Positions 15,580 to 32,130 of a DNA stretch of 32,613 nt are shown in pieces. The notes under the pieces are model-generated. The model was given only the letters and a program-made list of their open reading frames with translations. It was not told the origin of the DNA and did not search any database. Origin of the DNA: Baffinella frigidus (taxonomy: Eukaryota > Cryptophyceae > Cryptomonadales > Baffinellaceae); contig MU646340.1 of the NCBI GenBank assembly GCA_026770585.1, positions 309,434-342,046 on the forward strand, given 5' to 3'. The stretch's first letter is position 1. The number at the start of each line of letters is the position of its first letter. The position numbers were made by a program, and so were the translations under genes.

Positions 15580-15634
<55 letters not shown>

Positions 15635-15958
15635 CACCCCCTCTCTCTCTCTCTCGCTCGCTCGCTCCCTATTTCTATCTCTCTCTCTCGCGCGCGCTTG
15701 ACGCTGGCGTTTTTGCTCCGGAAGGCTGCACTCAGCACGCACCCCAAGTGTGTTCGGGGTGAGGGTTCATGATCTAGAGTTTCAGGTTTACGATCTAGGG
15801 TTGGAACGCCACCCTTTCAAAATCGAAGCCTGAGTCCGAAACCCAGATGCAGATGCAGATGCAGGCGTGGACGCGTCACCGCACCGCGCTTCTGCGGTAC
15901 GAGCACCCCCGCTGGAGACCGCCCCTACCCATGCACCACCTGCTGCCGGGCCTTGATG
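12639..15958 (+). CDS. EF-hand protein gene, multi-exon (3' end unresolved)
   Basis: Exons: 12639-13070 (ATG 12639; the donor is uncertain because the frame runs to 13103), 13360-13419 (donor GTGAGT), 13833-13903, 14202-14334 and 14838-14897. Phases 0, 0, 2, 0, 0 agree. Candidate continuations are 15449-15476 or 15449-15527 (ELRAEMFDD) and 15865-15958 (TRHRTALLRYEHPRW); the last junction does not match in phase. The N-terminal third is Ser/Arg/Glu/Pro-rich and probably disordered. LDKLQQKEIIRR plus FVAEMDKDNDGWMRRDTV forms one EF-hand helix-loop-helix. No second EF-hand or catalytic domain is visible, so the role is at most a calcium-responsive or EF-hand-derived scaffold. No terminal stop exon was identified. 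GAGCTGCGCGCGGARATG also occurs at 15241-15258, a partial duplicate of the exon at 15449. Confidence 0.6.
13833..13903 (+). CDS. Exon encoding EF-hand loop
   Basis: Translation FVAEMDKDNDGWMRRDTV, then IAFLH. Loop positions 1, 3 and 5 are D, D, D, position 6 is G and position 8 is M (normally hydrophobic). Position 12 is T instead of the usual E, so calcium affinity or ion geometry may be altered. Entry is phase 0 after TGCAG; exit is phase 2 before GTCCAC. Confidence 0.75.
14431..14595. mobile_element. CCACACAGCGG-family MITE
   Basis: Left end CCACACAGCGGACTACAACG, right end CAGCCCGCTGTGTGG (inverted). The interior contains CCTACGGTAGGCTATCCGTA. It is intronic in the EF-hand gene and 165 bp long. 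Confidence 0.75.
14972..15111. mobile_element. Foldback MITE, ACCGGGCAGTT family, copy 2
   Basis: TAACGGCCTGAAAACCGGGC at the left and CCCGGTTTTCAGGACGTT at the right, with the same palindromic CCTACGGTAGGCCGTAGG interior as 3963-4115. Just downstream, TTTTTCAG at 15112-15119 could serve as an acceptor. Confidence 0.75.
15583..15690. repeat. (CT)n microsatellite
   Basis: An almost pure CT run of about 50 bp, then interrupted CTCTCT/CGCTCG tracts. It is pyrimidine-rich on the coding strand of the EF-hand gene. Confidence 0.97.
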
Positions 15959-15983
15959 GTGTCCTGCAACCTTGGCGACCCAC

Positions 15984-16143
15984 CCACACAGCGGGCTACG
16001 ATGGGATTTTCGGCCTATTTTGGGCCAAGTTTCCGTTACCTTATCTGTAGGAACCCCCCTATGTTCCTGCGGGTTGCCTACCGTAGGGTCCTAGGTCTTA
16101 TCGCTTAGGGGTTGTTCAAATCCCTGCGAAGTCCGCTGTATGG
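15984..16143. mobile_element. CCACACAGCGG-family MITE, best-preserved copy
   Basis: Left end CCACACAGCGGGCTACGATG, right end AAGTCCGCTGTATGG: inverted ends of about 13 bp with one or two mismatches. It contains TTCCGTTACCTTATCTGTAGG, CCCCCCTATG, GGTTGCCTACCGTAGGGTCC and GGTCTTATCGCTTAGGGGTT. The frame of the exon at 15865 would meet a stop inside this element if it were not spliced at 15959. Confidence 0.8.
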
Positions 16144-16567
16144 TGCGCACCCTTTCAAACGAAGTCATTTCGGACGATACCATAATCAGTTCCACGTGTT
16201 TACTATGCTGGGGCTTTTTGTGTGACATGTTAGGTTGGCTGTTGCTATCTTGGTGTGAAACCCATGCCTAACATAGCATCCAAAGTGGATCTGGTTCGGC
16301 TATCTTCCGAGATGAAAACTGCTGGTGCATGCACGCAAGGCACCGACCGTCACGCCGGCGCCAATAAACGTGGAAATTGCCTTGGTTGCCGTGGCATGAC
16401 CCTCCATGTTGCCTCCTCGCGACGTCCGCGTGACCTCCTCGTGACCTCCGTGTGACCAGGTCACGCTGCAAGCGGTAGAGGCGTCACGCTGGAAGCACGA
16501 AAGACACGAACACGCGTCCACTGCCGAGCGACGCAGGTGCGACAGGCCCGCCTCGAGGGGATTTTCT

Positions 16568-16646
16568 GGGGACACCGTCCCGTGTAGGATGACCGGAGTG
16601 ACTTTACATGAGTCACTCCGGTGATCTTACACGGGACTGTGTCCCC
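16568..16646. repeat. 79 bp near-perfect hairpin
   Basis: GGGGACACCGTCCCGTGTAG pairs with the inverse at 16611-16646: 36 bp arms with three mismatches. The apex contains GGAGTGACTTTACATGAGTC. The motif AGTGACTTTACA recurs at 31250-31300 and GAGTCACTTTACAGGGA at 20001-20525. Confidence 0.8.
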
Positions 16647-16748
16647 AGAGATCTCACCCCCCGGTTGCACGGGCAGATTTGCTGGATTGGAGGAGTTCCC
16701 GGACTCGTGTTCAAAACATGCCAGCTGGTGAAGCAGAGTCCGTCGCTA

Positions 16749-16789
16749 GATAGATAGACAGATAATTAGAAAAATAGATAGAAGAAAAC

Positions 16790-16826
<37 letters not shown>

Positions 16827-16908
16827 AAGGTAGATAGAAAGATAGATAGATCGATAGATAGATGGATAAATAGATAGATAGATAGATAGATAGATGGATA
16901 GATAGACA
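16749..16908. repeat. (GATA)n microsatellite
   Basis: TAGATAGATAGA units with interruptions over about 160 bp. Confidence 0.98.
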
Positions 16909-17223
16909 TGAGTCCCCGCCCCTCAGAAATCGAGCTGCCCGCAAAACAAAGCCACCGCGGGCCCTTCAACGAGGGCCCGGGGGGTCTCGGTCCCCCTGTC
17001 ATGCGCCCCCACACCCCCCCCCCTGCCGGCAGTTTCATGATTTCTCTTTCATGATTTCTATTTCATGATTTCTCGTGCCTCTACATGTTCCAAGTGAGCT
17101 GGAGAGGTGAGGGTTCAAGATTCGTGATTCGTGCCGGCAGTCCTCGAGTAGCCCGCTGCACTGCCGAGGGGGGGGGTCCAGGACGGTGTTTTTGATGTGG
17201 GACGGTGTGTGATCAGGGCGAGC

Positions 17224-20200
17224 ATGGCGCTGGAGGCAAGGCTGTTCGCTTCTGCGTTTGGCGAAGAGCCGATCGATCCATCTTCGTCCTTGACGGTGCG
17301 CCTGTTGTATCCCGCGTGTGACCCTGTTTCTCTCGATTCCTCTGTGAAGACCACGCATAAGACTACGAGGAACATTCTCAAATTGACTTTTTGATAGTTT
17401 CTTAGGAAACACGCCACAAGTCAGCTATTGTTGGTCGTGTTACACCAGATATCCGGGGCTTCCGGGCCTCGCAGTCTTTTCAGCGGTATGCATACATGCA
17501 TCGCTCCTCAGCTTACAGCAGCTGGGAGCGACCCCCCCCCCCTTTCTCCCTCGTTCTGCAAAATGTCAGAGAAAAGCATATCCACCTCTGAGAGGAAAGA
17601 GCGTGATTGGAACCACAGCCGTCGCCATCTGTTTCCAAGCTCCGCCCGATCCGTTCAGCAAGCTACATATCACACGACGAAAGGGAGAGTGGTTTCATGG
17701 TGCGTGCACGCGGCACAGACTCTCGAACGGGCGCATTCCTGACGCTAGAGGACCCTGCATTCCAGGCACCAGAGCACCTCTCATTTCCGACACTAAGGAA
17801 CACCTCATTTTCGACACCGAAGCACCCTTCATTTTCGACACCAAACAACCCCTCCTGTCTGACACCAGCGGCCCCCTGTTCCTCCAGGCGAGGGGGGGCA
17901 TGGAGGCGATTCAGGAGCAGGTGTCCAGTCTCGCGGGAGCCTCGCCCCGGAAGGGTGCCGTCAGCTTGGGGACAGGCCCGTTATTTCTCGATGAGGCCTC
18001 GTCGCAGGCGAGATTCAGCCTCGTGGCGATGGGGACGAGTCCCAGAAGGCGCGATGGGGCGTCGGAGCAGGTGGGACTCTCGCTCCGCCTCGTTGCAGAC
18101 TTCTCACGAGTATGTGAGGCGTCTCTCTTGCGCTCGTCCCGATTCACAGACCGTTTCTAGGGGAATCCTGGTTAGTTGGTACTCGACCAATTTCAGGCGT
18201 GGGGGGTGGAATCATTCCCGGTGTAGGTATCGTCCTGGTGCCAACGCTGCGTGGTTCAACACTCTCATCCGGACGAGTATTTGAGTCAAATACGATTTTG
18301 GGGATCTCCGAACCGATTTGCAACGAAAATTACTACGTGACTGGAAAAGTCAGGTGTGTAGTAATTTTCGTTGCCAGGATCGTATTTGAGTCAAATACTC
18401 GCCGCGATTAACTCGTGCTTACGCATGGGGGGCGGCTCATAACCTGGCGCAGGAATCAGGATCCCCGTTGCCGCAGCTGTTGGCGAACACGCACCACACA
18501 GCAGACTACGAACGGGTTTCACCAAGAGACGCGCTGGCGGTTTGCACTCTACTGACTGGGAGGACTGCGGGGGGACTGTGGCGCAGGTTGCGAGCCTGGG
18601 TGCGGACGATTCCGAATCAGGATCGCCGGTGCCGCAGTTGTTCTCGAACAAGCGCGGGTACCGCTTGCCGGGGCATGCCGACGATGCGCACGTAACCCTG
18701 ACACCCACCTTCTTCTTTTTTGTTCATCTTCCCCGATTGACTTTACAAGTGATTTTACCGCGGCCGAACTTTTTTGTTCATATTCCCCGATTGACTTTAC
18801 AAGTGATTTTACCGCGGCCGAACGTTCTCTCTTTGACACGCTTGACTTGTGATTGCGGGTTTTACATTTCTCGGGCATTTGTACGAGATGTCGCCGGAAA
18901 TCGCGCAGCCTGCGGCGCAAAAAAACAGCGGAAAGCACGTTCAAAGTCAATCGGGGGGAAATGGTTTCCTCCCGAGTTGGGAGCTGTGGAACCGCCCTCA
19001 ACTCGGGCAGAAACCATTACTGTCACGCCTAGCGATGAGTGATCCAATACTCTCAAGCCTGGAGATGCGTGGTCCAATACTCTTAAGCCTAAAGATGAGT
19101 GATCCAAACCCCCAAGACCTTCCTCGTTTCTCGAAATGAAAGCGGACATGATGGCGGGTATGATAGAGGCAGGAGACCAGACGCGAAATCAGGTACGGGG
19201 CATGCACGCAACCAGCGAGGAGACGTGCGGATGAATCAGGGTGGAGGCGTGCGGAGGCATCGTGCGTGCCGCGTGCGAGCAACCATGCCGCGTGCGGGGC
19301 TGACACAGCATCACCAAATGAATATGTTTGATACCCATAAAATCGCGAAATCCCAGGTGTTATGCAGCGGAATGTAGTCGTGCGGGGCTGACGCAGCGTG
19401 GTGGTGCAGGCTGGGGACGGCAGGGGGGAAGCGGGGGTGCAGGAGAAGGTGAAGCTTGTTCCTCTCAGCGTCAGCTGGCGCGCGCGTTCACTCTCGGAGC
19501 TTACCGAGGTGGAAACGTTGACGGATTTGTACCGCACACCCAGCATGTCAACTTGAGAATAGTCGGACTATTCGCATGTCAACTTTGGACTAGTCAACCC
19601 CAGTGAGGCAGAGCTGGAAGATGCTCAGCTGGCGCGCACGTTCCCTCTCGGAGCTCACTGAGGTCAAGCGCTGGTTCCGTCTATTTGGTCGAAACGATTT
19701 GGTGAGCCCGGGCGCTGTTGAGCGGAACAGTTGACGGAATGCACCGCGAACTTGGAGCGAAAACGTCAACCGATTGTACCGTGAAAAATGTCAACGTGGG
19801 AGTAGTCGATCCCTCTCGGAGCTCGCCTAGCTTCGTGCCCTAGTTCGTTCAACCGTGAATCGCAGGCGTGTGGAGTTTATGGGTGATTCACGGTTGACTG
19901 GAACCTCTCAGGTGACTTGGACCGCCCTGAGTTGACCGAATATTTGGTACAGGCAGTGCGTAGCGCCAGCACCCTCTCTCAAGTCAGCAGAGTCTCGGGA
20001 TGAGTCACTTTACAGGGAAGCTGAGTCACGTTGCTTGCACATGAGTCGCTTCACAAGAAATCAACTTTTGTCTCGACTGGGAATCAACTTTTGGCTCGCA
20101 CGTGCGCAGGAGGCATGCACGTGTCGACCTCGCCAACCTGCACGCATCACCTCTCTCTCCACCCCTCAACTCCCAGTCACGTTACCGGGAAGGCTGAGTC

Positions 20201-21827
20201 ACGTTGCTACCTCTCTCTCCACCCCTCAACTCCCAGTCACGTTACCGGGAAGGCTGAGTCACGTTGCTAGCACCTGCCGCGCCACAGTCTGGAAGGAGTC
20301 TCCAAAAGTCGATTCATTCTCAAGCCAGTGGTTTCCAAAAGCCAACAACCGTTCCCTGGAACGGTTAAAAAAAACTGACCCCCACGAACACTCTGGCGTG
20401 GTGCGCAGGACGGCGTGAATGTGTCGACGTCGCCGACGTTCGCGCAGAACCTCTCTCCCCACCGCGCCAACTCTTAGCCACTTTACAGGGCGGCTGAGTC
20501 GCTTTACTTTACAGGGAGGCTGAGTCACTTCGCTCGCTCCTGAGCAGGACGGCGTGAACGTGTCGACGTCGCCGACGTTCGCGCAGAACCTCAAACGCGC
20601 CACTTCCCAGAGCTGGCTCACGGGCAGCGCGCGGAAGAGAGGCTCTGAGAGAGCTGCTGAGGGTAGGAGAACCACTGGGGGGCCACTCTCGAGTTTTTTC
20701 GCTCCTGGCGGCAGCTTCAAAGGTACAGCGCCCACCCTCCCTTGCAGCGTGGAATGGTTACAACTCGAATCATTATGATGTATGTAGTAATAACCTTTCC
20801 ACCCTGCTCCCTTGCTTTGCCAGCAGCCCTTTTTCGTTTGACCGTAAATCGCACCCCGGTGGCGCGAATTGCATATCCTGCCCCCCGCCAGGCCCCGCCT
20901 CACTTGGCATGGTTTCAGTGCGGGTAAGTTGGGGAACTCCGAATGAGTGCGGAACTCCCGCGTAGTCACCCCACTCACTTGGAGTTTCCCAAACCTACCC
21001 GCATTCAGGTTTAGGGTTTAGGGTTTGGAGTTTCGAGTTTGGGGTTTAGGATTTAGGGTTTAGGGTTTAGGGTTCAGGGTTCAGGGTTCACGATTCATGC
21101 GCGCGGGGCGTCTGATTTTTCGGCACCAGCGACGCCTGGCCTCGCTTGTATCTGAGAAAACGTATTAATCCATGCCTTTCTGCCAATGAAACCCACGACA
21201 CAATTGGATCATACTAGTAACCGTATAGTGTGTGTACAGTATTGTTTTTTGGCAGGAAAGACACTAATTAATCCATTCTACGAGGTAAGTTTGGCATTGC
21301 CTCAGGCGCGGGAGGCCTCAGAGTGTTCGGCACCGGTTGGGGAACTCCAACTGAGTGGGGAACTCCGACGTAGTGACCCCACTCAGTTGTCTGAACTTAC
21401 CCATATGCAGGCGCGGGAGGGCACCGAGTGTTGGGCATGAGCGATGCTGCTCCCCCACGCGCGCCCCCAGGTCGACCCGCTGATCCAACTCCCACTCGAA
21501 TTTCTCACGATGTGAACAACTATCGGTTGGGAGTATCTGTAGTCCCGAGGTCAGCACGTTGCTTTATGCTGCACCGGACAGAGTGGGAGGTTGCGAGCAG
21601 GTTCAATGGCGCAGGGTTCAGGGTTCAGGGTGCGTGGTGTCTCAACTCCCTGAAGCGCCCCCCCTCTCAGGCACTCCAGTATTTCTCCCAGACTCGTCAG
21701 ACGCTCCGCCGCCCTCCCCAGGAGGAGTTTCCGAGGATTTCTCGCAGGGCGGCGTTTCCGAGGAGGGGCACGCAGAGGGGGGTTGGGCAGACGCTGCTGT
21801 CACCCAGCTCTTGTTTGGACACTGGCG
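17224..21827 (+). CDS. Multi-exon gene of unknown function with duplicated exons (3' end in gap)
   Basis: Exon-like pieces on the + strand: 17224-17295 (ATGGCGCTGGAGGCAAGG, possible first exon), 17888-18109 (GGMEAIQEQVSSLAGA), 18587-18691 (DDSESGSPVPQLFSNKRGY), about 19117-19192 (EMKADMMAGMIEAGDQTRNQ), 19612-19662 (SWRARSLSELTE), 20548-20662 (DGVNVSTSPTFAQNLKR), 21411-21470 and 21671-21827 (GWADAAVTQLLFGHWR). Phases agree at every junction except into 19117. The sequence is Ser/Pro/acidic with no recognised domain. Exit at 21827 is phase 2, which equals the entry phase of the serpin exon at 24288, so this may be the 5' half of the serpin gene rather than a separate one. Several exons have extra copies nearby (18453, 19469, 20110, 20409, 21306). 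Confidence 0.45.
17735..17885. repeat. 30 bp minisatellite before exon 17888
   Basis: Four or five units of the type CATTTTCGACACCGAAGCAC run up to the acceptor at 17886-17887. The array is open in the same frame as the exon (units read FDTEAPFI-like), so an unspliced or longer exon cannot be excluded. Confidence 0.65.
18274..18401. mobile_element. Palindrome-ended MITE, CGAGTATT family, copy 1
   Basis: Outer arms 18274-18296 and 18379-18401 are perfect 23 bp inverted repeats, and each arm is itself palindromic (GTATTTGAGTCAAATAC). An inner perfect 17 bp pair GCAACGAAAATTACTAC lies inside. The flank CTCATCCGGA and interior GATCTCCG are shared, inverted, with 22178-22318. Confidence 0.85.
18453..18515 (+). 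pseudogene. Partial copy of exon 18587-18691
   Basis: GAATCAGGATCCCCGTTGCC, GCAGCTGTTGGCGAAC matches the middle of the exon at 18587 (ESGSPLPQLLAN versus ESGSPVPQLFSN). After AACACG it changes to CCACACAGCAGACTACGAAC, the terminal repeat of the CCACACAGCGG family. So it is a duplicate truncated at a transposon end. It still has CAG and GT borders in phase 0. Confidence 0.6.
18722..18823. repeat. 54 bp tandem duplication
   Basis: Units starting GTTCATCTTCCCCGATTGAC at 18722 and GTTCATATTCCCCGATTGAC at 18776 are nearly identical through ACCGCGGCCGAAC. Intronic. Confidence 0.95.
19469..19840 (+). repeat. Tandem array of about 160-170 bp containing exon copies
   Basis: CAGCTGGCGCGC.CGTT..CT, CTCGGAGCT.AC.GAG appears at 19472-19508 and 19625-19662, and a shortened TCCCTCTCGGAGCTCGCCTAG at 19809-19830. 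The first two keep SWRARSLSELTE followed by GT. The intervening sequence (TTGACGGA.TTGTACCG, ATGTCAAC) is also repeated. Only the middle copy matches the phase 0 entry expected from its neighbours. Confidence 0.65.
20110..20662 (+). repeat. Three tandem copies of the DGVNVST exon, two decayed
   Basis: CAGGACGGCGTGAACGTGTC, GACGTCGCCGACGTTCGCGC occurs at 20548 (intact, 115 bp, donor GTAGGA). At 20409 the same frame hits TAG at 20475, and at 20110 a 1 bp shift breaks the frame. Linker units GGGAAGGCTGAGTCACGTTG repeat between them. A local duplication, with decay of the extra copies, is the simplest reading. Confidence 0.7.
20149..20269. repeat. Perfect 60 bp tandem duplication
   Basis: 20149-20208 is identical to 20209-20268 (units begin ACCTCTCTCTCCACCCCTCA). 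Identity suggests a very recent event. Confidence 0.97.
20917..21006. mobile_element. Intron-like palindromic element bounded by GTAAGT and CAG
   Basis: TGCGGGTAAGTTGGGGAACT at the left pairs with GGAGTTTCCCAAACCTACCC at the right. The stretch from GGTAAGT (20925) to ATTCAG (21006) has the layout of an 80 bp intron. A related element lies at 21336-21405 (GGGGAACTCCAACTGAGTGG, ACCCCACTCAGTTG). Confidence 0.5.
21007..21091. repeat. TTTAGGG / TTCAGGG array
   Basis: Degenerate TTTAGGG units on the + strand, i.e. antisense to the gene around it, unlike most other arrays here. Confidence 0.9.
21306..21470 (+). CDS. Duplicated small exon flanking an inverted-repeat element
   Basis: CAGGCGCGGGAGGCCTCAGA at 21303 and CAGGCGCGGGAGGGCACCGA at 21408 are near copies on each side of the 21336-21405 element. 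Both can be phase 1 to phase 1 exons: 21306-21335 and 21411-21470 (the latter reads AGGHRVLGMSDAAPPRAPP, donor GTCGAC). Because phases are symmetric, either or both could be spliced in. The product is unknown. Confidence 0.35.
21671..21827 (+). CDS. Exon, acidic/proline-rich then GWADAAVTQLLFGHWR
   Basis: CTCTCAG acceptor, phase 1 entry. The translation has TPVFLPDSSDAPPPSP and GGVSEEGHAEGGWADAAV, then TQLLFGHWR at GTGCGT (phase 2 exit). It ends 19 bp before the assembly gap. Clearly coding-like; the family is not recognised. It could be the N-terminal region of the serpin-PDZ protein. Confidence 0.55.
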
Positions 21828-21846
21828 GTGCGTGCTGGGTAGGGAG

Positions 21847-22076
21847 NNNNNNNNNNNNNNNNNNNNNNNNNNNNNNNNNNNNNNNNNNNNNNNNNNNNNN
21901 NNNNNNNNNNNNNNNNNNNNNNNNNNNNNNNNNNNNNNNNNNNNNNNNNNNNNNNNNNNNNNNNNNNNNNNNNNNNNNNNNNNNNNNNNNNNNNNNNNNN
22001 NNNNNNNNNNNNNNNNNNNNNNNNNNNNNNNNNNNNNNNNNNNNNNNNNNNNNNNNNNNNNNNNNNNNNNNNNNNN
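21847..22076. other. Assembly gap (N run)
   Basis: 230 undetermined bases followed by a G run. An exon could be missing here. Translations that run across the Ns are meaningless. Confidence 1.
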
Positions 22077-22177
22077 GGGGGGGGGGATGTGCGCGTCGCC
22101 GCATGGGCTGGTGGGGGTGCTGCTTCTTGGGTGTACGGCGTCTGATGGTGCGGCTCCCTTGCCTGATCTAATCCCGC

Positions 22178-22318
22178 CGAGTATTCATAATGAATACGAT
22201 TTTGGTGTATATTAAGGGTATAAATAAGTCAATCGTCTGTCTAGACTTCATTCAGAGACTCAAGATACACCAAAATCGGATCGGAGATCCCCAAAGTCGT
22301 ATTCATCATGAATACTCG
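22178..22318. mobile_element. Palindrome-ended MITE, CGAGTATT family, copy 2
   Basis: Left arm CGAGTATTCATAATGAATAC, right arm GTATTCATCATGAATACTCG, inner pair ATTTTGGTGTAT and ATACACCAAAAT. The right flank GAGATCCCCAAAGTCG and CGTCCGGATGAGAT match copy 1 (18264-18311) inverted. 141 bp. Confidence 0.85.
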
Positions 22319-22435
22319 TCCGGATGAGATCTGAGGCTGGTCGCAGCCCTTGTTTGCAGAGCACCCGGGGTTCGCAGACCAGTGCCGTTGCTGGTCAGCA
22401 CCAAACGGCGTTTAAATTGAGACTGGTTCCGCAAT

Positions 22436-22640
22436 ATTTATGCTCACGAGAGAGCGGTGTGGGGAAAGACACCTCCGTGTGGAACAGATTGATGCTGACG
22501 AGAGAGTATATGGCGGGCAGACGCTCGAAGTGATTGATGCTCACGCGAGGGTGGTGTGAGGACAGACGCTTCCTCCGTGAATAATTGATGCTGAAGAGAG
22601 AGTGGTGTGGGGACAGACGTTTCCACGGGGAAGGAGACAC
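22436..22640. repeat. 60-65 bp degenerate tandem repeat, about 3.5 units
   Basis: Each unit contains TTGATGCTCACGAGAGAG, GGTGTGGGGACAGACG and TCC.CG.G. The last unit merges into the exon-like segment 22617-22669. Confidence 0.85.
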
Positions 22641-22669
22641 TCGAGGAGCTGGCCCTCTTTGCGCGCCGG
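22617..22669 (+). CDS. Candidate exon (TGKETLEELALFARR)
   Basis: GACAG acceptor, phase 1 entry, CGG|GTCTGT donor, phase 0 exit. TGKETLEELALFARR is strongly helix-like and would suit the GA.G.T..eL...L segment near the serpin N terminus. The context (end of a tandem repeat) and short length keep this tentative. Confidence 0.35.
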
Positions 22670-22680
22670 GTCTGTCCCCG

Positions 22681-23175
22681 TCTAAACCCTAAACCCTAAA
22701 CCCTAAACCCTAAACCCTAAACCCTACACCATGAACCCTAAACCCTTGAACATAAACCCTAGACCCTACATGCTCAATCATCAACCCTAAACCCTGGACC
22801 ATGAACCCTAGACCCGAAACCCTGAACCCCAAACCCTAAACCTTGAACCCTGAACCCTAAACCCTGAACCCTGGACCCTGAACCCTAGGCCCGCAACCCT
22901 AAACCCTAAACCCTAAACCCTAAATCCTAAACCCTAAACCCTACACCCTAAACCCTAAACCCTAAACCCTCAAACCTAAACCCTCAACCCCAAACCCTAA
23001 ACCCCAAACCCTAAACCCTAAACCCTAAACCCTAAACCCTAAACCCTAAACCCTAAACCCTCAAACCTAAACCCTGCATGCTCAACCTTGAACCATGAAC
23101 CCTGAACTCTGAACCCTAAACCCTGTACCCTAAACCCTATACCCCAAACCCTAACTCTAAACCCTACACCCCAAA
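22681..23175. repeat. Largest CCCTAAA telomere-type array in the window
   Basis: About 495 bp of CCCTAAA with CCCTGAA, CCATGAA and CCCTACA variants on the + strand. It ends five bases before the CAG acceptor of the candidate exon 23181. Confidence 0.98.
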
Positions 23176-23180
23176 CGCAG

Positions 23181-23279
23181 GGAAAAGGGACAGACGTTTC
23201 AGGGGGTATCGAGGAAGAGGAAGCAGATGATGAGACGTGGCGCACACGAACAAGAGCCGTGTTCCCGTGGCACCAAGCG
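23181..23279 (+). CDS. Candidate exon, acidic helix
   Basis: AAACGCAG acceptor, phase 0 to phase 0, donor GTCTGT. The translation begins GKGTDVSGGIEEEEADDETW, then RTRTRAVFPWHQA. Its phase matches the exon ending at 22669. Position suggests the serpin gene 5' region, but no serpin motif is visible. Confidence 0.35.
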
Positions 23280-23311
23280 GTCTGTCCCTCTTCCCGAGCG
23301 ACGTTTAACAC

Positions 23312-23385
23312 GCTTAGCGGGAAATTCATGGCTCACGCTTAACGGGCAATTCATGGCTCACGCTTAACGGGCAATTCATGGCTCA
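23312..23385. repeat. 28 bp tandem triplicate
   Basis: Three units of CGCTTAACGGGCAATTCATG plus GCTCA, the first with small differences. Confidence 0.95.
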
Positions 23386-23427
23386 CAAGAGCAGTGTTTC
23401 CGTGGAACTAAGCGGTCGGTCTCAGCT

Positions 23428-23709
23428 CCACACAGTGGACTACAAAACAATTTGTCGGATTCTGGCCAAAAATCGGTTAGGATATTCGTATGACTAGCCT
23501 ATGGCCCTACGGTAGGCAATACTGAAGGGTCCAATGACACCAGGCCCTGCTCCATACAGACTACAAAGTGATTTCGTGAATAACTCATACGTGGATAATC
23601 CATAGGAACCTACCGTAGGCAATCCGGGTCGCAGGGTTGTTCTCATGGATATCTTAGGTCATTCCCGGTGGCTCGGTTGCCAAAATTTCCTTCAAAGTCC
23701 GCTGCGTGG
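23428..23709. mobile_element. CCACACAGCGG-family elements, nested or adjacent pair
   Basis: Left end CCACACAGTGGACTACAAAA at 23428, a second left end CCATACAGACTACAAAGTG at 23551, and one right end CAAAGTCCGCTGCGTGG at 23709. Interiors share CCTACGGTAGGCAATAC and CTACCGTAGGCAATCC. One copy probably inserted into or beside another. Confidence 0.65.
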
Positions 23710-23867
23710 CCCCGGCCTTTGTCGGGAAATGGTCATTATAGAGTAGGTTACAAGCCTGGAGGTCATGCCAGAAGTGGTTTCGCGTGAGATGGTCGTGCGG
23801 AATTGAGTGTGGTGCCTGAACGTGGCAGTCTTGTGGAATCGAGAGTGTAATTCAGTGTGGAGATTTA

Positions 23868-24028
23868 GTGTACAGATTCAGTGTGGAATCGAGTGTGGAA
23901 TCGAGTGTGGAATCGAGTGTGGATTTGCGTGTGGAATTGAGTGTGGAGTTGAGTGTGGAATTGAGTGTGGAATTGAGTTTCGAAATTCGTGTGGTACTGA
24001 GTGTGTAATTGAGTGTGGAGAGTGGACA
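23868..24028. repeat. GTGTGGAATTGA tandem repeat
   Basis: 12 bp units GAGTGTGGAATC / GAGTGTGGAATT. The complementary form (CACACTC.TCCCACACTCAG) follows at 24089-24148, so the pair can fold into a cruciform. Confidence 0.9.
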
Positions 24029-24029
24029 T

Positions 24030-24328
24030 GGCAGGAACACGTGGGAAGGAAGAGGCACCTGAGTCGGGCCACGTCCAATCTCCATATTGAATTACACACT
24101 CCGTCCCACACTCAGTCCCACGCTCATTTTCACACTCGCTTACACACTAGGAGCACGCGGGAAGGAAGAGGCTCCCGTGTCGATCGCGCCCGCCCGCCAA
24201 AAATCCCTTCGTAGCTACGCACGACACACACAGTTGTGTGGCCGCGCCCTGAGCGGGAAATGCTCAACAGTGGACGTGGCGTGGCAGGAGCACTTGGGAA
24301 GGAAGAGACTGCCGAGTCGATCGCGCGA
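24030..24328. repeat. Three copies of an exon-start segment
   Basis: GGGAAGGAAGAG preceded by GRRCAC and followed by GAGTCG (or TGTCGATCGCGC) occurs at about 24034-24065, 24150-24190 and 24287-24328. Only the third leads into an open frame with good coding character (the exon at 24288). Confidence 0.8.
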
Positions 24329-27300
24329 GTGCAGCGTCGAGTACTCCGTCTGGCTCCCTGCTGGTGCCGCGCCCTTCCGCCCACGTGCATGCGCCGCTGT
24401 TGGCTGAGGGTGCAGTGGTTTGGGTGTAGGGTGTAGGGTGTAGGGTTGCGGTCAGGGTGGGCAAGGACCATACAGAGAAGGGACGAGCCAGAGGAGCAGG
24501 GGGGGTGCCGCACCCCCCCGCTTAGCGCTCAAGTTTTTAAGGATGCAGCTACGGCTGTTGAACACTAGGCGCAGGCACGGTTTGGTAAAACGTTTCCTGT
24601 TTGAGCCACCACATTTTCGAGGTTGCCGTTGAGGTTGGGTGGTTTAGGCCCTCCCGATTAGCTCTCAAGTTCTTACGGCTAACTTCTCAAGGTCGGTGTC
24701 AAAGGTGGGCGCCATCACATTTTTGAGATTGGTGTGAAGGTTTGGCCGTCAAATCGCTAAACCTTAACAACCGACGGGGTGTTGTGGAAGCTCGGGGTGT
24801 GTTCAGGAGGGGAATGAGTGTGTCCATGACGGGGAGCATGTGGCGCAGGGGCCAAAGCGTCGAAGCGGTTTGCCGTGGCTGTGCAAGAAGCCCTCGGCGC
24901 TCACGTCTTCCGCCGCGAGACCAGCACTGGGGGGGACGAGGAGGTACCGCGCCCCGCGCTCCGTGCCCGTAATTGTTTCCGACCGATCTTGCCGGTCCTG
25001 GGGAAGTGTGTATGTGAAGCCCACCAGTTTGAATCCGAGACGCGGTGCAGGTGGCTGAGTGGATGCGGCTCAAGTCGGAGAGGGGGGCGCGCGCGTTTCC
25101 TCCACCACGCGCTCCTCCACACCAGGCACGTCCCATACTCTCTGCAACACCTCTCGCTCGCTCTATCTATATCTCGCTCTGTCTCGCTCGCTATCTCTCT
25201 CTCTCGCACACATCACACACACACGCACAAGTCGGAGTGGGGCGCGTGCGCATTCCCTCCTCCCCGGGCTTCTCCACACAAAGTGCGTGTGTGTCAAATT
25301 TTCGCGTGTGCACACTACACTATCTGAAACACCTCTTGCACACTCCCACACCTCTTGCCCACCCAGTCGTTTCTCCGCTCCCAGGGCTCCTCCCCACCAG
25401 GTGTCTTCATTGACCCTGCGCACACTCGGGAGAAACGACTGGGTGGTTAAGAGGTGTGGGAGCCGCACACGCGCACTCCTCTTCACCACCCATCATTTCT
25501 CCGATAGATATCCTGCCTGGGTAAGTGGTTAATATCGCGTGCAGATCCTGCCGGGTTAGTGTTGACGTCTGAAGAGTAACACCTGTAGGTGGCTCCAGTG
25601 CTGGTGGTAGCCTCCACTTCAGTTGCTTTACAGTAACGGCACTAACCACTTTTTCTCCCTCGCAGGTGGTGTGGGCGCTAGTGGCGCGGCTGGCGCTGCC
25701 CTGGGTGCAGCCCTTTGCGCGCCGGAGAACGCGCGTTGCCCCTTTCTCCCTTTCGACAGGCGCGCTCCCCTCCCTCCCTCCCGCTCTCCCTCCCTCCCTC
25801 CCTCCCTCCCTCCATCTACCGACTGTATACTGGTTACATCTTTCTCTGAATCTGAGCATTCCCGGTTTAGTTGTCGTGCTGGCAAAGACCCTGCCCGGTG
25901 CAGTGAACAGTGGTGGGACTGTATTGCCTGGGTGCGCAGGGGGGAGTGGACGCTGCCAGATGATGCAAGGAAGAGTGTTCGCCCCTACGCTCGAGACTGA
26001 CAAGTGCCATACCCGCCCGCAACTTGTTCTTCAGATTCTTATTGTTCTTCTTCTTCGTCTTCTGCTTCTTCTTCTCCTTCATCTTCTTCTTTATTCGCCT
26101 TGTGAAAAGTTTTCACCACCGCGACATTCACCCTTGGCCCCACACTCCTGTACACGTAACACACGTCCCGCATCACCTCTGGATCCCCAGAGAGTCGATG
26201 CGGTGTGATGAATGACCGTGGATTCGAAACGTATCCGGGTTCAGATGCAAAAATATATCCGCGTTAAGATCCGACCATGTATCAGTGTTTTGATACGAAC
26301 CTCTATCCATGTTTTGATGCGAAACAATATATCCGTGTGTTCTGTTGCGAAGATAGATATTGAAGCTGACCCGCAAACCCTAAAATCTAAACCCTGAACC
26401 CTAACCCCTAAACCCTAAACCCTAAACCCTAAACCCTGAACCCTAAACCCTAAACCCCAAACCAGGTTCTCGGCGGTTGTGCTGGCGTGTGGGGACGCGT
26501 GTCCAATGGAGGCCATCTTCTTCCGTCCTTTGCAAGGTCATGATCCTTTCCCCCACCATTCAGTTACAGAGTGTCTCATCATACTTCCATGTGGTACACG
26601 GTAAAAGTGGCCATTTTGTTAGGTAAAAGTGGTGATGCGTTCATTTCTACTTCTCGCGTTGGACAATCGATGCGAGAACCGCTCTATCAGGGGATATAGA
26701 GCGTTTGCGGTAATTGTTGTCCGTTTTGGACGTGCGGTTTTCCGGTTTTCCGGTTTTCATTTGCTCCCCCCCCCGATTCATTTGTACCAGAGAAGTGTCC
26801 ATTTAAAATATTCAACGACCTTTACAACATTTTAAAAAACCGTAAAACCGGAAAACCGTACGTCCAAAACGGACAACAATTACCGCAAACGCTCTACCTC
26901 AGCCGATTCTTGGAGTGACCCATGATGCAACCACGCTCCTGACGATCTTCGTTTGACACATGATGAAATCTCGCGGCTGAAGAGAGGTGACGAGGGCGGC
27001 GTTTGGGACTAACCCCTCAACCCTAAATCCGTGGATACAGGGGCGGCGGTTGGGGGCGAAAAGGCCGACGGGTTGGACGAAATGCTCAGGTATTTGCAGT
27101 GCACCCAACCACCTGCCCTCCCGAGTGAACCTGATTGGGTCTGGAAGGTTACTAGCTCTGTCTCAGTCTGTTTGGTCACCCCAACCCCTGAACCCCAAAC
27201 CCCAAATTCCAAACCTCAAACCACAAACCCAAAAACCAAAACCCAAAACCCAAAACCCAAAACCCAAAACCCAAAAACCAAACACCCAAACTCCAAACCC

Positions 27301-30300
27301 TCAACCCTCAACCCCAAACCCGAAACCCGAAACCCTACACCAGGGTGCTGGAGGAGGGGGACATGGCAACGCTGATGGACGGAGCAGCCGTGAGGGATGT
27401 CGAGCTTTTGATTCCTCGCTTCACCCTCTCGGTGCCCACCCACCCTCTCAAACCTAAGTGTTCACAAAAGAATCGTTTTCATGTCCTGCAGGCTTGTCAT
27501 ACAAACCAAGGGATTTATCTAATATTATAGGGATGCATATTTGCTCCCAAGTCTAGTGGAGTGGTGTGGTTGGGTGGGTCTGGTGGATGTGTACCTACCT
27601 CTGGAGGTGCGTAGCGCGAAAGTTATTGATTTGCCTCTTCGGGTCGAGTCGAAATACCGCGTGGATTCCAGAGCTTAAGTGGATTCCGGAGCCCAAGTGG
27701 ATTCCAGGGCCTAAGTGGATTCCAGAGCCTAACTGGATTCCAGAGCACAAGTGGATTCCAGAGACTAAGTGGATTCCAGAGCCTACGTTTATTCCCGATC
27801 CTAAGTTAATTCCAGACATTAAGGTGTCGAGCCTCACGCAGGTGGCGGCCCCAGAGGAGGTGTCAGGAGCTCTCGGGGAGTTGCCGGGCTTCCGGAAGGC
27901 TCTAGCCTGCGGCCTTTTTGGATGCCCCAGCGGCGACTCGACGGTACGTCGCGAACCGTCGCATTTTGACAATTTATGGGGGTATGAATTGTTGCAGCCA
28001 CACCAGGCTCAACAAGCCCCAAATTCAAACGTCCAAAAGGTCACAATGTATTCATTGTATAGTCGTTTTCATTGGGTTGGTCACGTGTCGACCGCGTTAA
28101 CCGGTCGACACGTGACTCACTCCCCTCAAAATCGCAAAACTAACATTTTGAAAGGGGAATGGGATAGCTTCGTGTGGAGGATCTGAGTGCCGTCGTGAGT
28201 TCTCTCCGTTCAAATAAGAATGCCCGTTTTGTCAAACTGAATTCCCGATTCAGTTTCAGATGACCTAGATAGGGCATTCCGGGCAAAAGTGAACGCTCTG
28301 CGTTGAAACGTGGATGCCGGTGGTCCTAGCCCTTGCGGTGTGATGCCTTTTCTGAGGTGCAACATGAATAACATGTTCTGGGTGCTTTGCGGCGACCCGA
28401 AACCCGAAACCCGAAACCCGAATCCCGAATCCCGAATCTCGAATCCCGAAACCCGAATCCCGAAACCCGAATCCCGGCCACACCGAAACCCGAAACCAGA
28501 AACCCGAAACGCAGGTAGTGCACCGCGAGCTGATCCGCTGCGACGAACGCGGCCTCACTGCGGGACCTGGTATGCTAACCATCACCCCTAAACCCTAAAC
28601 TCTCAACCCCAAGCCCCAATTCTAAACCCTTACCCTAAACCCTACACCTTTCTTTGCTAGAACGAAGCCACAACTAATTCAAACCATGGTCGGACCCCCC
28701 CTTGTACGATCCCTGTCCTCCTGCTGCCTTAGCGCAGCGCCTTTCAGCATCTCGTTCGCGCGGGTGATACGGTTGGTGCTGATGGTTGTGCGGGGAATAT
28801 GTGGCAGGGAGCGACAACGACTCGCTGTGCGGCGAGCAGGAGTTGGAAATGCCAGGCATCGGACTTCAGGTGCGTGCTGGTTTCCTGATGCTAATCCCGC
28901 CCGGTTCAGAACTCGGCCCGGTACAAACCAGGTGTAGCTCACCCTCCTGAACCCTGAACCCTGAACCCTGAACCCTGAATCCTGAAACCTGAATCCTCTC
29001 GGCAGGGGGGTGCGCCGTGCGCGATCCTCTGGACCGACGGCCTGGAGGATGAAGCTCGCAACAGGTCCATTGTGGGTTCAGGCGTCAGGCTTCAGGGCCT
29101 AGGGTTCAGGGTTCAGGGCTTAGGGTTTATGGTCCAACAGGTCTTCTTCTTCACTATTTTATTTTTATTTTTTTAACACTCTCGAACCTTAAATTGTGTG
29201 ATACAATAGTCTATGCGCCTCACGAAATCGGCCCCTGCAGCCTGGCACTCTCCTCTACCCTCCTTTACCCTCCGCCACGCTCCTCCACCCTCATCTAGCC
29301 TTCTCCAGCCTCCGCCAGCCGTCTCGCACCCTCCTGAGCCTAATCTTTCCGCAGTCGTGTCAAGTGCTCAACCGCCGGTGCCGCATCTGTTTTAGTTTGA
29401 TGTGTGTGTGTGTGTGGTGCTCGAGTGCTTTCCTTTTTTTTTAGTTTTGTGTGTGTGGTGTGTACTCAATGGTACCCTGGGGCGACAGGGAGGGGGGGGC
29501 ACTCTACGCGAACCCTGCGATTCTCCCCGGAGATACCATCTTGGAAGTGGACGGACGAAAGGTGCCGCCCTCCCTCACAAATCGCTGCCCTTTTCGAGGC
29601 ACGACAACCAGTCGAGGCCAGGAAAGGGACTATTTTGAAATTTAAGGTCTGCCTGAGTGAACCTGGGCACCCCACAAATGCATTGAAGTTGCCCGTTTAA
29701 ACTAGAGTTTCTGCTCATGACTTTTTATCACGACGAGCCCAGTTTTACTCAGGCAGAGCTGGACATTCCCGCTGAGCACGAAACCCAACGTCCGAAACTG
29801 CAGGTGCATGACAAGGGTAAAGAGGAGGTAGCACGGATGCTCTCGGGGCCGCGCGGCGCCGTCGTCGCCCTCACTCTCGCTCGGTACACCTTACACTCTA
29901 AACCATCAACACTAAAACCTAAACCCTAAGCCTTAAACGCTAAACCCTCAGCCTTAAACCCTAAGCCTTAAACCCAAAATCTGGAACCCTGAACCCTCAA
30001 CCCTGAATCCTAAACCAGAACCTCTAAACCCTTAATCCTGAACCTAAACCACGTGGCGCCCTAGCCCGGCCTACCGTATTCCAAATCCGTATGCTAATTA
30101 CTTGAAATCGTGCCCTGGCCCTCTCTCGGCTGGTGTGGGTTAAAGGTCCAGGGTTGAGGGTTGAGGGGGTTGAGGGTTGAGGGTTTACGCCCAAGACACG
30201 CGCACCTACGCGCCCTAGGCCAAAACTTTACCAGGTAGGTAGTCAGATTATCTGGCGATAACTTTCCATAACTATGAACTCTAAACCCTCACACCCAAAC

Positions 30301-32130
30301 ACCACACCCTACGAACCAAACCATAAACCTAATCCTGGACGTTTACACCCCCAGGACGGACCCGGTCCAGGAGGGGAACGGGAGGATGGGCGATGACGCG
30401 GCCCTCAACCCTAAACCCTTAACCCCAAACTCTCTACCTAAACTCTGCCGCTGCACACCAGCAGGGCGGTGGACCATGAGGAGGGGGTGAGGAGGCCGGG
30501 CGAGGACCTAAACCCTGAACTCCAAACCCTGGACCCTGAACCCTGCACCTTCGCGCCCCAGGGCGGTGGACACGAACCGAGAAGGGAAAGGGAGGGTGGG
30601 TGAGAATGCAGCGTGGGGGCGCGCGACGGCTCCGATTTCCTCCCCGCTGCACGGCCGCCGGGTCCAGGTGCTTCGCTCGCTCGTGTCTTGCATCGTCTCT
30701 ACCATGAAAGTGTTCAACTATGAAAGTGTTTAACGAAGTTCACGTCAGCATTTTCTGGTGGGTAGCGTCCCGGGGTGGCCGACCCCCTAGCTCTGTCAGA
30801 GCTGCCACGGTAGCTTGATCCGACAACTGGGGGGTGGCGCCGTGTATTGCTTCCACAACACGCCTGGCGCATAACCCACTAACAACAACCCCCCCCCAAA
30901 ACAAAAGGTGTGCCTGCGGCGGAACCGGAGCGTAGGCACCACGCTCCACTCTGGCTCTGGCGGGAGCGGGGAGGGGGGCAGTGGAGAGGGGGGGGGGGTG
31001 ATGCGGTTCGAGCTGGATCGGCCGTTTGCGGTCGTGATACGCGATACGACGAGTGGCGCGGTATGCGCCTACCCCTCCCGCCCTCTTGAAATACGCCCCC
31101 CTACCTCCTGCCGAATTACGCCCCCCTAACTCCTGCCGAATTATGCCTCCCTGGCTCGGTCCGGATGGTGCTACATTTAGCACCACCCGGCGCCGCAATC
31201 AAATGATTTATGTGGGATAGCCCCGTGTAAGACCCGCGGGAGTGACTTTACACAGTTGACTCACACAAGTGACTTTACACAGTTAGGAGTGACTTTAAGC
31301 AGTTGACAGATGCAGCGCCCCCCCCCTGTTCGCAGGTGCTGGCAGCATGCGTCGTCATGTCCCCCGACAGCCCCCCCCCTTCCTCCTCGGATGACCTCCT
31401 CCCAACGCGCCTCGAGTATGAGGCGTCACCTGCGGTACATCGAAGTTCCCCACCGACTAACATCTCGGATGGTGACTTTGGCGAAGATGGTGACTTTTCG
31501 CGCATGAGCCGACCTGGCTCGGGGTTTGGGTCTCACTATGGCTCTATCCCGGTAGAAACCCGCGCTGAAGAGACGGGGGCGGAGCAGCCGTGGAAGGTAC
31601 TGGAAGGCTCTCGCTCGGGGGGCGGCGGCAATGGCGAGGGCGAGGGCGAGGGCGAGGAGGGGAGGGGGGGCGGAGGGTGGGGGTGGGAGAGTCGTCGGGC
31701 GCAGGAGGCTCTGGCCCGGGCGCACGCGGTCCTCCAGCTGTCCTCCCACGCGGGGCACATTTCCGGATACGACGCCGGAGGGCACGCGCAGCATGTGGAC
31801 GGACGGCAGCCCGAGGGCGCGTCAGCGCGTCTCACTGAGGGGGGGCATGCGCGCGGGGCTGAGGAAGAATGGCTCTCTGGGCAAGTCGCGCCCGTAAACG
31901 GAGGCGGGCGCGTCCTCGCGGTCGGGCGCGTTTTGGCCCCGGGGGACCTCGGTGTCTCGGCGCCGGAGGGGCGTGATGTCGGACATGATGAAGAACGTGA
32001 CCCGCCCGTGCTGACGCGCCCCGAATCCAATGGCTCCAATAACGCCGCTGGGAGCGACTCCTCAGCGCCGGAGAACACCGCGTCTGGGAGGCCTGGGAGC
32101 GATGAGTCATGGGGCGACATCGGGGGGTAA
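24288..32130 (+). CDS. Serpin with PDZ domain between hinge and C-terminal strands (serpin-PDZ gene)
   Basis: Exons (all + strand): 24288-24409, 24849-24943, 25666-26003, 26466-26536, 27041-27089, 27344-27431, 27842-27943, 28515-28569, 28808-28869, 29006-29064, 29489-29561, 29804-29883, one of 30465-30486 or 30562-30595, 30908-31060 and 31336-32130. Intron phases match at every junction, and the total is 721 or 725 codons including TAA. Serpin landmarks occur in family order: LPWVQPFARRRTRVAPF, CQMMQ, AVVLACGDACPMEAIFFRP, VELLIPRFTL, the helix ALGELPGFRKAL, the hinge VVHRELIRCDERG, FELDRPFAVVIRDTTSG and VLAACVVMSP. Four exons between hinge and FELDRPF code a PDZ domain. The N-terminal serpin helices A-D were not found with confidence; they may lie in or before the gap. 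Serpins are protease inhibitors or relatives with a mobile reactive loop; PDZ domains bind C-terminal peptides. Secretion cannot be judged without the N terminus. Confidence 0.7.
24849..24943 (+). CDS. Serpin gene exon (SKRFAVAVQEALGAHVFRRE)
   Basis: GCGCAG acceptor, phase 1 entry, donor GTACCG, phase 0 exit. Together with the exon at 24288 (SGSLLVPRPSAHVHAPLLAE) it would cover the strand-helix-strand segment before the W..PF region. Similarity to serpins here is weak; the placement rests on phase and order. Confidence 0.5.
25666..26003 (+). CDS. Serpin exon with W..PF motif, low-complexity insert and MM segment
   Basis: The CTCGCAG acceptor opens a frame reading VARLALPWVQPFARRRTRVA, which fits the serpin lvnA.yF...W..pF....T...F block. 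The same frame stays open through a (CCCT)n tract to GSGRCQMMQGRVFAP and a GTGCCA donor (phase 2). Serpins normally have about a dozen residues between these blocks; here there are about 60. No phase-compatible intron that removes the CCCT tract was found, so I list it as one exon with an insertion. Confidence 0.55.
26031..26097. repeat. (CTT)n microsatellite
   Basis: Pyrimidine CTT/CTTTATT tract early in the serpin intron after 26003. Confidence 0.95.
26378..26464. repeat. CCCTAAA array ending at a serpin acceptor
   Basis: CCCTAAA / CCCTGAA units run directly into CCCCAAACCAG, the acceptor of the exon at 26466. Confidence 0.95.
26466..26536 (+). CDS. Serpin exon, central sheet segment
   Basis: Phase 2 to phase 1. 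The translation FSAVVLACGDACPMEAIFFR, then PLQ, fits the serpin y.~vveLPY.gd...M.iilP segment. Both splice phases match the neighbouring exons. Confidence 0.65.
26697..26896. mobile_element. Foldback element with about 60 bp arms
   Basis: TAGAGCGTTTGCGGTAATTG, TTGTCCGTTTTGGACGTGCG on the left recurs inverted at 26836-26896 with few mismatches. The arms include GGTTTTCCGGTTTTCC units; the spacer is about 78 bp. It lies in a serpin intron. Confidence 0.85.
27041..27431 (+). CDS. Two serpin exons leading to the IPRFTL strand
   Basis: 27041-27089 reads AAVGGEKADGLDEML. 27344-27431 continues VLEEGDMATLMDGAAVRDVE, LLIPRFTLS. Together they fit the serpin stretch l..le..lt...l..w.....V.v.lPrFkle. 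The phase 2 junction is exact. The donor after TCG at 27431 is GTGCCC. Confidence 0.7.
27185..27343. repeat. AAACCCA / CCCTCAA array in serpin intron
   Basis: Degenerate AAACCCA, ACCCGAAACCCG and CCCTCAACCC units end in CCCTACACCAG, the acceptor for the exon at 27344. Confidence 0.95.
27640..27815. repeat. 18 bp minisatellite (AGTGGATTCCAGAGCCTA)
   Basis: Eight or nine units, the last ones diverged, in the intron between 27431 and 27842. In one frame they read WIPEPK repeats and this frame is continuous with the next exon. Confidence 0.97.
27842..27943 (+). CDS. Serpin exon after the IPRF strand
   Basis: ACGCAG acceptor, phase 0 to phase 0, donor GTACGT. VSGALGELPGFRKALACGLF fits the serpin helix dL...L..LG...aF....adfs; GCPSGDST follows. 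The distance from PRFTL to this helix is only about two residues longer than usual if the intron with the minisatellite is removed. Confidence 0.7.
28085..28116. repeat. Short perfect palindrome GTCACGTGTCGACC
   Basis: TCACGTGTCGACCG and CGGTCGACACGTGA flank CGTTAAC. The intronic hairpin arms are about 15 bp. A second hairpin pair (AAACTGAATTC / GATTCAGTTT, GAATGCCC / GGGCATTC) follows at 28217-28278. Confidence 0.8.
28389..28514. repeat. CCCGAAA / CCCGAAT array ending at the hinge-exon acceptor
   Basis: A variant telomere-like unit (CCCGAAA, CCCGAAT) ends in ACCCGAAACGCAG, the acceptor of the exon at 28515. Confidence 0.95.
28515..28569 (+). CDS. Serpin hinge exon
   Basis: Phase 0 entry, phase 1 exit (donor GTATGC). 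VVHRELIRCDERGLTAGPG corresponds to the serpin vvHka.ievnEeGteAaaatg. Counting the Glu of DERG as P17, P15 is Gly and P12 is Ala as usual. P14 is Leu and P10 is Pro, which are poor for loop insertion and may indicate a non-inhibitory protein. Confidence 0.75.
28808..29883 (+). CDS. Four exons encoding a PDZ domain
   Basis: 28808-28869 ends LEMPGIGLQ (the GLGF-type carboxylate-binding loop). 29006-29064 gives GGAPCAILWTDGLEDEARN, 29489-29561 gives LYANPAILPGDTILEVDGRK, and 29804-29883 gives VHDKGKEEVARMLSGPRGAV plus VALTLAR. Order and spacing are those of a PDZ domain: binding loop, the GD.Il.VdG strand, helix B (KEEVARML) and the last strand. Phases run 1, 0, 2, 0 and then exit at 2, each matching the next exon and the hinge exon before. 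It could be an independent nested gene, but no start or stop of its own is seen. Confidence 0.75.
29885..30060. repeat. CCCTAAA-type array after PDZ exons
   Basis: CCCTAAGCCTTAAA, CCCTCAACC and CCCTGAA units follow the GTACAC donor at 29884. Confidence 0.9.
30465..30595 (+). CDS. Two alternative microexon candidates in the serpin loop region
   Basis: 30465-30486 (AVDHEEG, donor GTGAGG) and 30562-30595 (AVDTNREGKGR, donor GTGGGT) both begin CAG|GGCGGTGGAC, enter at phase 2 and exit at phase 0. A third, weaker relative starts at about 30354. The reading frame requires exactly one of them between 29883 and 30908. They are very short, so this is tentative. Confidence 0.3.
30908..31060 (+). CDS. 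Serpin exon with loop end, Gly/Ser linker and FELDRPF strand
   Basis: The AAAAG acceptor gives phase 0 and VCLRRNRSVGTTLHSG, then a Gly-Ser-Glu linker and FELDRPFAVVIRDTTSG, the serpin F..dhPFlf.Ird..tg signature near the C terminus. An alternative acceptor (30935) would shorten the linker but change phase. Donor GTATGC, phase 0. Confidence 0.7.
31250..31310. repeat. GTGACTTTACACAGTTGAC triplicate
   Basis: Three short direct copies of AGTGACTTTACACAGTT / AGTGACTTTAAGCAGTT in the last serpin intron. The core AGTGACTTTAC matches the apex of the 16568-16646 hairpin. Confidence 0.8.
31336..32130 (+). CDS. Terminal serpin exon with long disordered tail
   Basis: GTTCGCAG acceptor, phase 0. VLAACVVMSP completes the last serpin strand (usual lF.G.v..P). 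The exon then runs on for about 250 residues rich in Ser, Pro, Gly, Glu and Asp (e.g. GNGEGEGEGEEGRGGGG) to TAA. A helix EALARAHAVLQLSSHAG interrupts it. It ends ESWGDIGG. The final four residues do not look like a typical class I PDZ ligand. Confidence 0.75.
   Translation: MLAACVVMSPDSPPPSSSDDLLPTRLEYEASPAVHRSSPPTNISDGDFGEDGDFSRMSRPGSGFGSHYGSIPVETRAEETGAEQPWKVLEGSRSGGGGNGEGEGEGEEGRGGGGWGWESRRAQEALARAHAVLQLSSHAGHISGYDAGGHAQHVDGRQPEGASARLTEGGHARGAEEEWLSGQVAPVNGGGRVLAVGRVLAPGDLGVSAPEGRDVGHDEERDPPVLTRPESNGSNNAAGSDSSAPENTASGRPGSDESWGDIGG

Follow-up and report, generated by a model that had tools for sequence, protein, structure and literature searches.

Serpins carry a short mobile loop, and the length of that loop and its small residues decide whether the protein inhibits. 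The locus described here raises the question of whether a serpin loop can carry a whole folded domain. The original prediction placed four PDZ-coding exons between the hinge exon of a serpin and the exon of its C-terminal strands, all on one strand and in phase, in a window of 32,613 nucleotides (the window being the whole stretch of DNA that was analysed). We asked whether both domains are encoded, whether their exons can be read as one frame, and what such a protein might do. The observation of serpin and PDZ exons is confirmed, and the interpretation built on it as a whole is partly supported. A divergent serpin fold with an entire PDZ domain (about 77 residues) in its reactive-centre loop, all in one gene, is probably what the locus encodes, judging from its exons and frames. 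The whole reading that we regard as the best explanation, in which this PDZ-in-loop serpin would act as a non-inhibitory scaffold, is given with moderate confidence.

The window is eukaryotic-type DNA with a G+C content of 56%; it is intron-rich, with short exons between AG and GT and long introns. Its 230 unknown bases all lie inside a single run (21847-22076) upstream of the serpin exons. Judgement by eye played a part in choosing the exon borders for the joined protein, and a self-written crude gene finder, which over-spliced (131, 95 and 54 exons, depending on which of three intron costs was set), was used as a hint only.

Other features of the window were also recorded. On the minus strand, 8370-11831 holds a multi-exon gene whose start resembles a signal peptide and which may encode ER membrane complex subunit 7; on the plus strand, the exon 306-470 (VYESLHALLATRSQGYMGEFA) is similar to a GSKIP-type domain. 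An ATG and several plus-strand exons at 12639-14897 may be the start of the serpin's own gene. One of these exons has a weak EF-hand-like stretch (13833), whose 13.5 bits against a cut-off of 30 do not justify naming it. Telomere-like CCCTAAA repeats, some perfect and others decayed, lie mostly in presumed introns (9011-9070, 21008-21088, 22685-23129, 26397-26463 and others), with 66 matches at two mismatches or fewer against 0.00 expected. A motif like CACACAGCGGACTACGAAGGGATTT recurs at 9461, 14432, 15985, 16118 and 18495 (5 matches at three mismatches or fewer, 0.00 expected), and these repeats are perhaps the ends of small mobile elements. A pattern scan of viral contigs gave 9 matches, none of which was a relative.

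The PDZ exons

Four plus-strand exons between the hinge exon and the C-terminal exon join in phase into one PDZ domain, as predicted. The first (28808-28869, SDNDSLCGEQELEMPGIGLQ, phase 1-0) encodes a loop stem and then the GLGF-like motif GIGLQ, a candidate carboxylate-binding loop standing at the place expected for it ahead of the second strand. The second (29006-29064, GGAPCAILWTDGLEDEARN, phase 0-2), like the first, was recognised by its in-phase join and its coding score; the donor that follows it, gtccat, is poor. The third (29489-29561, EGGALYANPAILPGDTILEVDGRK, phase 2-0) and the fourth (29804-29883, VHDKGKEEVARMLSGPRGAVVALTLA(R), phase 0-2) were recognised by their match to Pfam PDZ_6 and PDZ. 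The joined PDZ part matched PDZ_6 with an E-value of 3.4e-7 and 30.4 bits (cut-off 27), and PDZ with an E-value of 1e-5 and 26.3 bits (cut-off 23.2). Both cut-offs were passed in all 6 joins that held the PDZ. These matches start after GIGLQ, at profile position 16 or 34. The joined PDZ part did not reach the Pfam cut-offs of PDZ_Tricorn and PDZ_2, and it matched the PDZ region of the prc family (TIGR00225) weakly, at 19.6 bits, far under the whole-protein cut-off of 218.6. The domain differs from the PDZ families, including the PDZ of the C-terminal processing peptidases, in that it is set within another fold.

Codon usage was scored with a model trained on 613 codons from the other exons of the window. 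The proposed frame was the best of three in all four PDZ exons, and among open segments of matching length from presumably non-coding DNA the fractions that scored as high were 0.001, 0.013, 0.045 and 0.005 for the four exons. In the hinge exon another frame scored slightly higher, but it contains a stop.

The serpin exons

The serpin profile was made from 75 of 80 bacterial and archaeal serpins that were fetched with a consensus query. When all model exons between 24849 and the end of the serpin were joined with the PDZ left out, the HH score was 88.5 and the probability 97.8 over 190 columns (164-367), whereas the maximum over 60 shuffles was 20.2 and the scores were 14.4 for the reversed sequence, 13.8 for the joined N-terminal exons and 19.7 for the C-terminal tail. 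The serpin C-terminal half is encoded on the plus strand in exons from 25666 to 31365. The serpin exons of the original prediction stand, and their extent had been understated, since the family fit extends back to 25666 in the HH alignment.

That alignment starts at PWVQPF (serpin column 164) in an exon of the strand 3A region (25666-25824, VVWALVARLALPWVQPFARRRTRVAPFSLST..., phase 0-0) and continues in order through 25960-26003 (MMQGRVFAPTLETD, phase 0-2), 26466-26600 (FSAVVLACGD...TECLIILPCGT, phase 2-2), 27344-27431 (VLEEGDMATLMDGAAVRDVELLIPRFTLS, phase 2-0) and 27842-27943 (VAAPEEVSGALGELPGFRKALACGLFGCPSGDST, phase 0-0), the last of which is also backed by its coding score. It then takes in the hinge columns in the exon 28515-28569 (VVHRELIRCDERGLTAGP(G), phase 0-1), which was also compared with the 75 serpins. 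The hinge exon and the exon with FELDRPFAVVIRD that ends at 31060 are both present on the same strand with AG...GT borders, as predicted. In our model the latter exon runs from 30982 to 31060 (GEGGGVMRFELDRPFAVVIRDTTSGA, phase 2-0). The last exon (31336-32130) encodes the serpin C terminus VLAACVVMSP, where the HH alignment reaches column 367, then a tail (31366-32130) of about 255 residues, low in complexity and rich in Gly, Ser, Pro and Glu, and ends in a TAA stop. A possible upstream exon (24849-24943, AKASKRFAVAVQEALGAHVFRRETSTGGDEE) has a coding frame and a phase that fits 25666; it lies outside the HH alignment.

Pieces of the model searched alone fell at the correct places, with probabilities that were modest for 24849-26600 (41.8, columns 164-215) and 27344-28569 (59.5, columns 241-320) and reached 94.6 for the exons from 30908 (columns 337-367), in which the C-terminal strands 4B/5B with the PF motif were found.

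An automatic spliced alignment, in which the program picks the exons unaided, was run over the whole window. Its best match joined the hinge (28509-28569) to 30982-31060 and 31336-31365 and reached the last profile column with 22.27 bits. None of 160 column-permuted profiles reached this score (mean 11.0, maximum 17.17), and at two other intron costs the real score again exceeded every permuted one (54.0 against a maximum of 42.8, and 124.8 against 105.4). At the first intron cost the score was 10.0 on the minus strand; with the profile reversed, it was 10.2 on one strand and 12.4 on the other. A piece at 30462-30486 that the search used between the hinge and C-terminal exons is taken to be spurious. 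The spliced search of 12000-28480 was weak: it found 27344-27431 at its proper columns (237-265), and permuted profiles reached the real score upstream of 28480 in 5/200 cases at intron costs of 9 and 6 and in 23/200 at a cost of 7. The exon 25960-26003 was also picked at lower intron costs, among spurious pieces.

In the candidate upstream exons, the N-terminal half of a serpin (columns 1-163) was not recognised by HH, and the run of unknown bases lies near its possible place. N-terminal serpin exons chosen by eye in the regions of 20548, 21667, 22078 and 23196 moved the HH score only from 88.5 to 89.1 when joined, and these candidates are therefore not claimed. When the joined serpin part was compared with PDB sequences by phmmer, the result was uninformative: mainly antibody fragments, matched through a Gly-Ser stretch, with a single serpin (6los, E 1.6) among the best 60 of 110 matches.

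The unrecognised N-terminal half and the gap upstream would fit a decaying serpin pseudogene, or an assembly error that joined two loci. We consider this quite improbable, because the joined model is open from 24849 to 32130, its sole stop being the final TAA, the coding score is kept in every PDZ exon, and all of the unknown bases are confined to the upstream gap.

Place of the insertion and the last junction

With exactly the 77 PDZ residues removed and the final model otherwise unchanged, the Pfam Serpin score rose from 20.0 to 29.3 bits (cut-off 27); with the PDZ kept, only the last 31 serpin positions were matched. The HH score rose likewise from 77.8 to 94.7, and the end of the alignment moved from column 276 to column 367. 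In the model with an exon start at 30908 (see below), the alignment with the PDZ in place ended at column 320 with a score of 58.3. When 77-residue cuts were made at 35 positions of the model, the top three began 16 residues ahead of the PDZ, 8 residues ahead of it and exactly at its first residue (HH scores of 95.9, 95.9 and 94.7), and the next best cut gave 88.1.

The joined translation reached the PDZ cut-offs as it stands and the Serpin cut-off only when the PDZ was taken out. Over all 12 scanned joins the Serpin cut-off was reached in 2. With the PDZ left in, none of 5 joins reached it (14.5 to 20.4 bits); with the PDZ cut from the final model, 2 of 3 did (29.3 bits, and 27.3 in a shorter cut), and a cut that also removed the loop stem from the longer form missed it at 26.6. 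Earlier PDZ-free joins did not reach it either (0/3, 20.8 to 23.1 bits), and a short piece without the C terminus gave no match.

Between Gly P15 and the Pro of the PF motif lie 111 loop residues in the final model, 77 of them PDZ and 34 remaining, and 171 in the 30908-start model; the 75 bacterial and archaeal serpins have 25-33 there. The PDZ starts 21 residues after P15, past the usual cleavage point if P1 lies where we presume. The two ends of a PDZ fold are close together, as insertion into a loop requires. That the PDZ is encoded in the reactive-loop region, on a single strand and in one open frame, is supported; that the exons are spliced jointly into one mRNA in the cell, and that the product folds, we infer.

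The claim that the whole exon chain is in phase holds from the hinge through the four PDZ exons and fails at the junction to 30908. Phase 2 at the end of exon 29804-29883 does not fit the phase 0 that a start at 30908 requires, and the frame is lost there. It is kept from 29883 if the exon starts at 30982, behind a CAG, which gives the simplest frame-keeping gene model. All 13 acceptors in the 30982 model are CAG, while the 30908 acceptor is AAG. A start at 30908 would need a bridging exon, and 30562-30667 or any of the shorter pieces 30562-30595, 30465-30486 and 30355-30364 on the plus strand would carry the PDZ to 30908 in frame. Three of these form a series of short exon-like pieces, 30355-30364 (TDP), 30465-30486 (AVDHEEG) and 30562-30595 (AVDTNREGKGR), of which the last two are similar.

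The original prediction named a transcript joining 28569 directly to 30908 as one that would speak against it. We examined this join and found that it would be out of frame, as would a join of the hinge to 30982. The same result bears on the idea that the PDZ exons come from a transcript of their own, separate or nested, or persist as unspliced relics inside an intron of the serpin. A small transcript of their own can be imagined, since reading on past 29883 leads to a stop at 29927, and the first PDZ exon contains an ATG at 28849. Set against this, the serpin exons on either side would not join in frame at either exon start; from the ATG at 28849 only a Pro precedes GIGLQ, so that most of any first strand would be lost; and upstream in frame from the 28808 exon a stop at 28780 precedes any ATG, which leaves room for a first exon further upstream. 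We therefore rate a separate origin of the PDZ exons as rather remote.

The reading frames also bear on whether the PDZ is an optional cassette, its exons being alternatively spliced so that plain-loop and PDZ-loop serpins come from one gene, which seems improbable to us. With the 30908 start and the bridge 30562-30667, the exons from 29006 to 30667 form a 318-base block of phase 0-0 that could be skipped in frame, and a join of 28869 to 30908 stays open and keeps the frame. This would rest on the AAG acceptor, however, and would need the joint skipping of four or five exons. With the 30982 start, skipping all four exons, or keeping only 28808, breaks the frame; three partial sets keep it (29489 by itself, not read as PDZ; 28808 with 29006; and 28808 with 29804), but in these the PDZ is broken or absent.

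Hinge, proposed function and known systems

The inhibitory hinge consensus for P17-P9 is given as E[EKR]G[TS].(AGS)4 in a passage of PMC2770083, according to which a single change in the hinge motif can abolish inhibition. The hinge encoded here, ERGLTAGPG, fails this consensus at P14 (Leu) and P10 (Pro). Neither Leu at P14 nor Pro at P10 occurs in any of the 75 serpins, a bacterial and archaeal set that was fetched by a canonical consensus and so leans canonical. Because the hinge departs at two positions of a motif in which one change can stop inhibition, we favour a non-inhibitory scaffold that displays the PDZ, a mechanism that the hinge residues suggest and that we put forward only tentatively. 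In such a protein the PDZ would sit on the P-prime side of the loop after about 21 residues of stem, and would be followed by a Gly-rich link and then by the normal serpin C-terminal strands. From its exposed loop the serpin body would present the PDZ, which might dock the protein to partners by way of the partners' C-terminal tails.

The same hinge could be read differently, as that of an inhibitory serpin with a built-in exosite, in which the PDZ recruits a protease by the protease's C-terminal tail, the stem before the PDZ is cut and inserts into sheet A, and the PDZ stays on the C-terminal piece. The stem, with its 21 residues from P15 to the PDZ, is long enough for this, and P17, P16, P15, P12, P11 and P9 match the inhibitory consensus, but the pair of Leu P14 and Pro P10, absent from all 75 serpins, makes it unlikely. 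The off-consensus hinge likewise weakens the proposal in the original prediction that peptide binding is coupled to loop movement. A natural switch of that kind, in which a peptide bound to the PDZ alters loop entry into sheet A, so that the serpin body is turned on or off by another protein's C-terminal tail or senses cleavage beside its own bait, is in our estimate also unlikely.

If a folded domain does sit in the loop, it would mean that a serpin body tolerates its loop as a display site and that evolution has used it as such. Sensors and switches could be modelled on such a protein as a natural template, and it would test clearly how much load the loop can take before the serpin mechanism fails.

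Among the matches listed in full-text literature searches, some of the lists in part, there was no serpin with an inserted PDZ. Compared with the Serpin superfamily (PF00079), the gene shares columns 164-367, the hinge Glu P17 and Gly P15, and the C-terminal FELDRPFAVVIRDTTSGAVLAACVVMSP; it differs in its 111-residue loop with a PDZ, its off-consensus hinge, its long C-terminal tail and its unrecognised N-terminal half. A large internal insertion is also found in Drosophila Spn100A, a serpin-derived protein that, in the passages on it in PMC2770083, has a 294-residue insertion between two blocks of serpin homology. There the insertion is flanked by an N-terminal block of 44 residues and a C-terminal block of 235 residues, the putative loop is located within the C-terminal part, and those passages name no PDZ. 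The tick serpin Iripin-8 shares an unusually long reactive loop; it differs, as far as the passages of PMC8431025 go, in being an inhibitor with a solved structure, whose long loop is rigid, with Arg at P1 and a poly-Pro element, and is described there with no inserted domain. A serpin and a PDZ also meet in one pathway in the inhibition of HtrA1 by SerpinE2, but there, according to the passages of PMC11026092, the PDZ is the protease's own and the two are separate proteins, whereas in the gene described here the PDZ would be part of the serpin itself.
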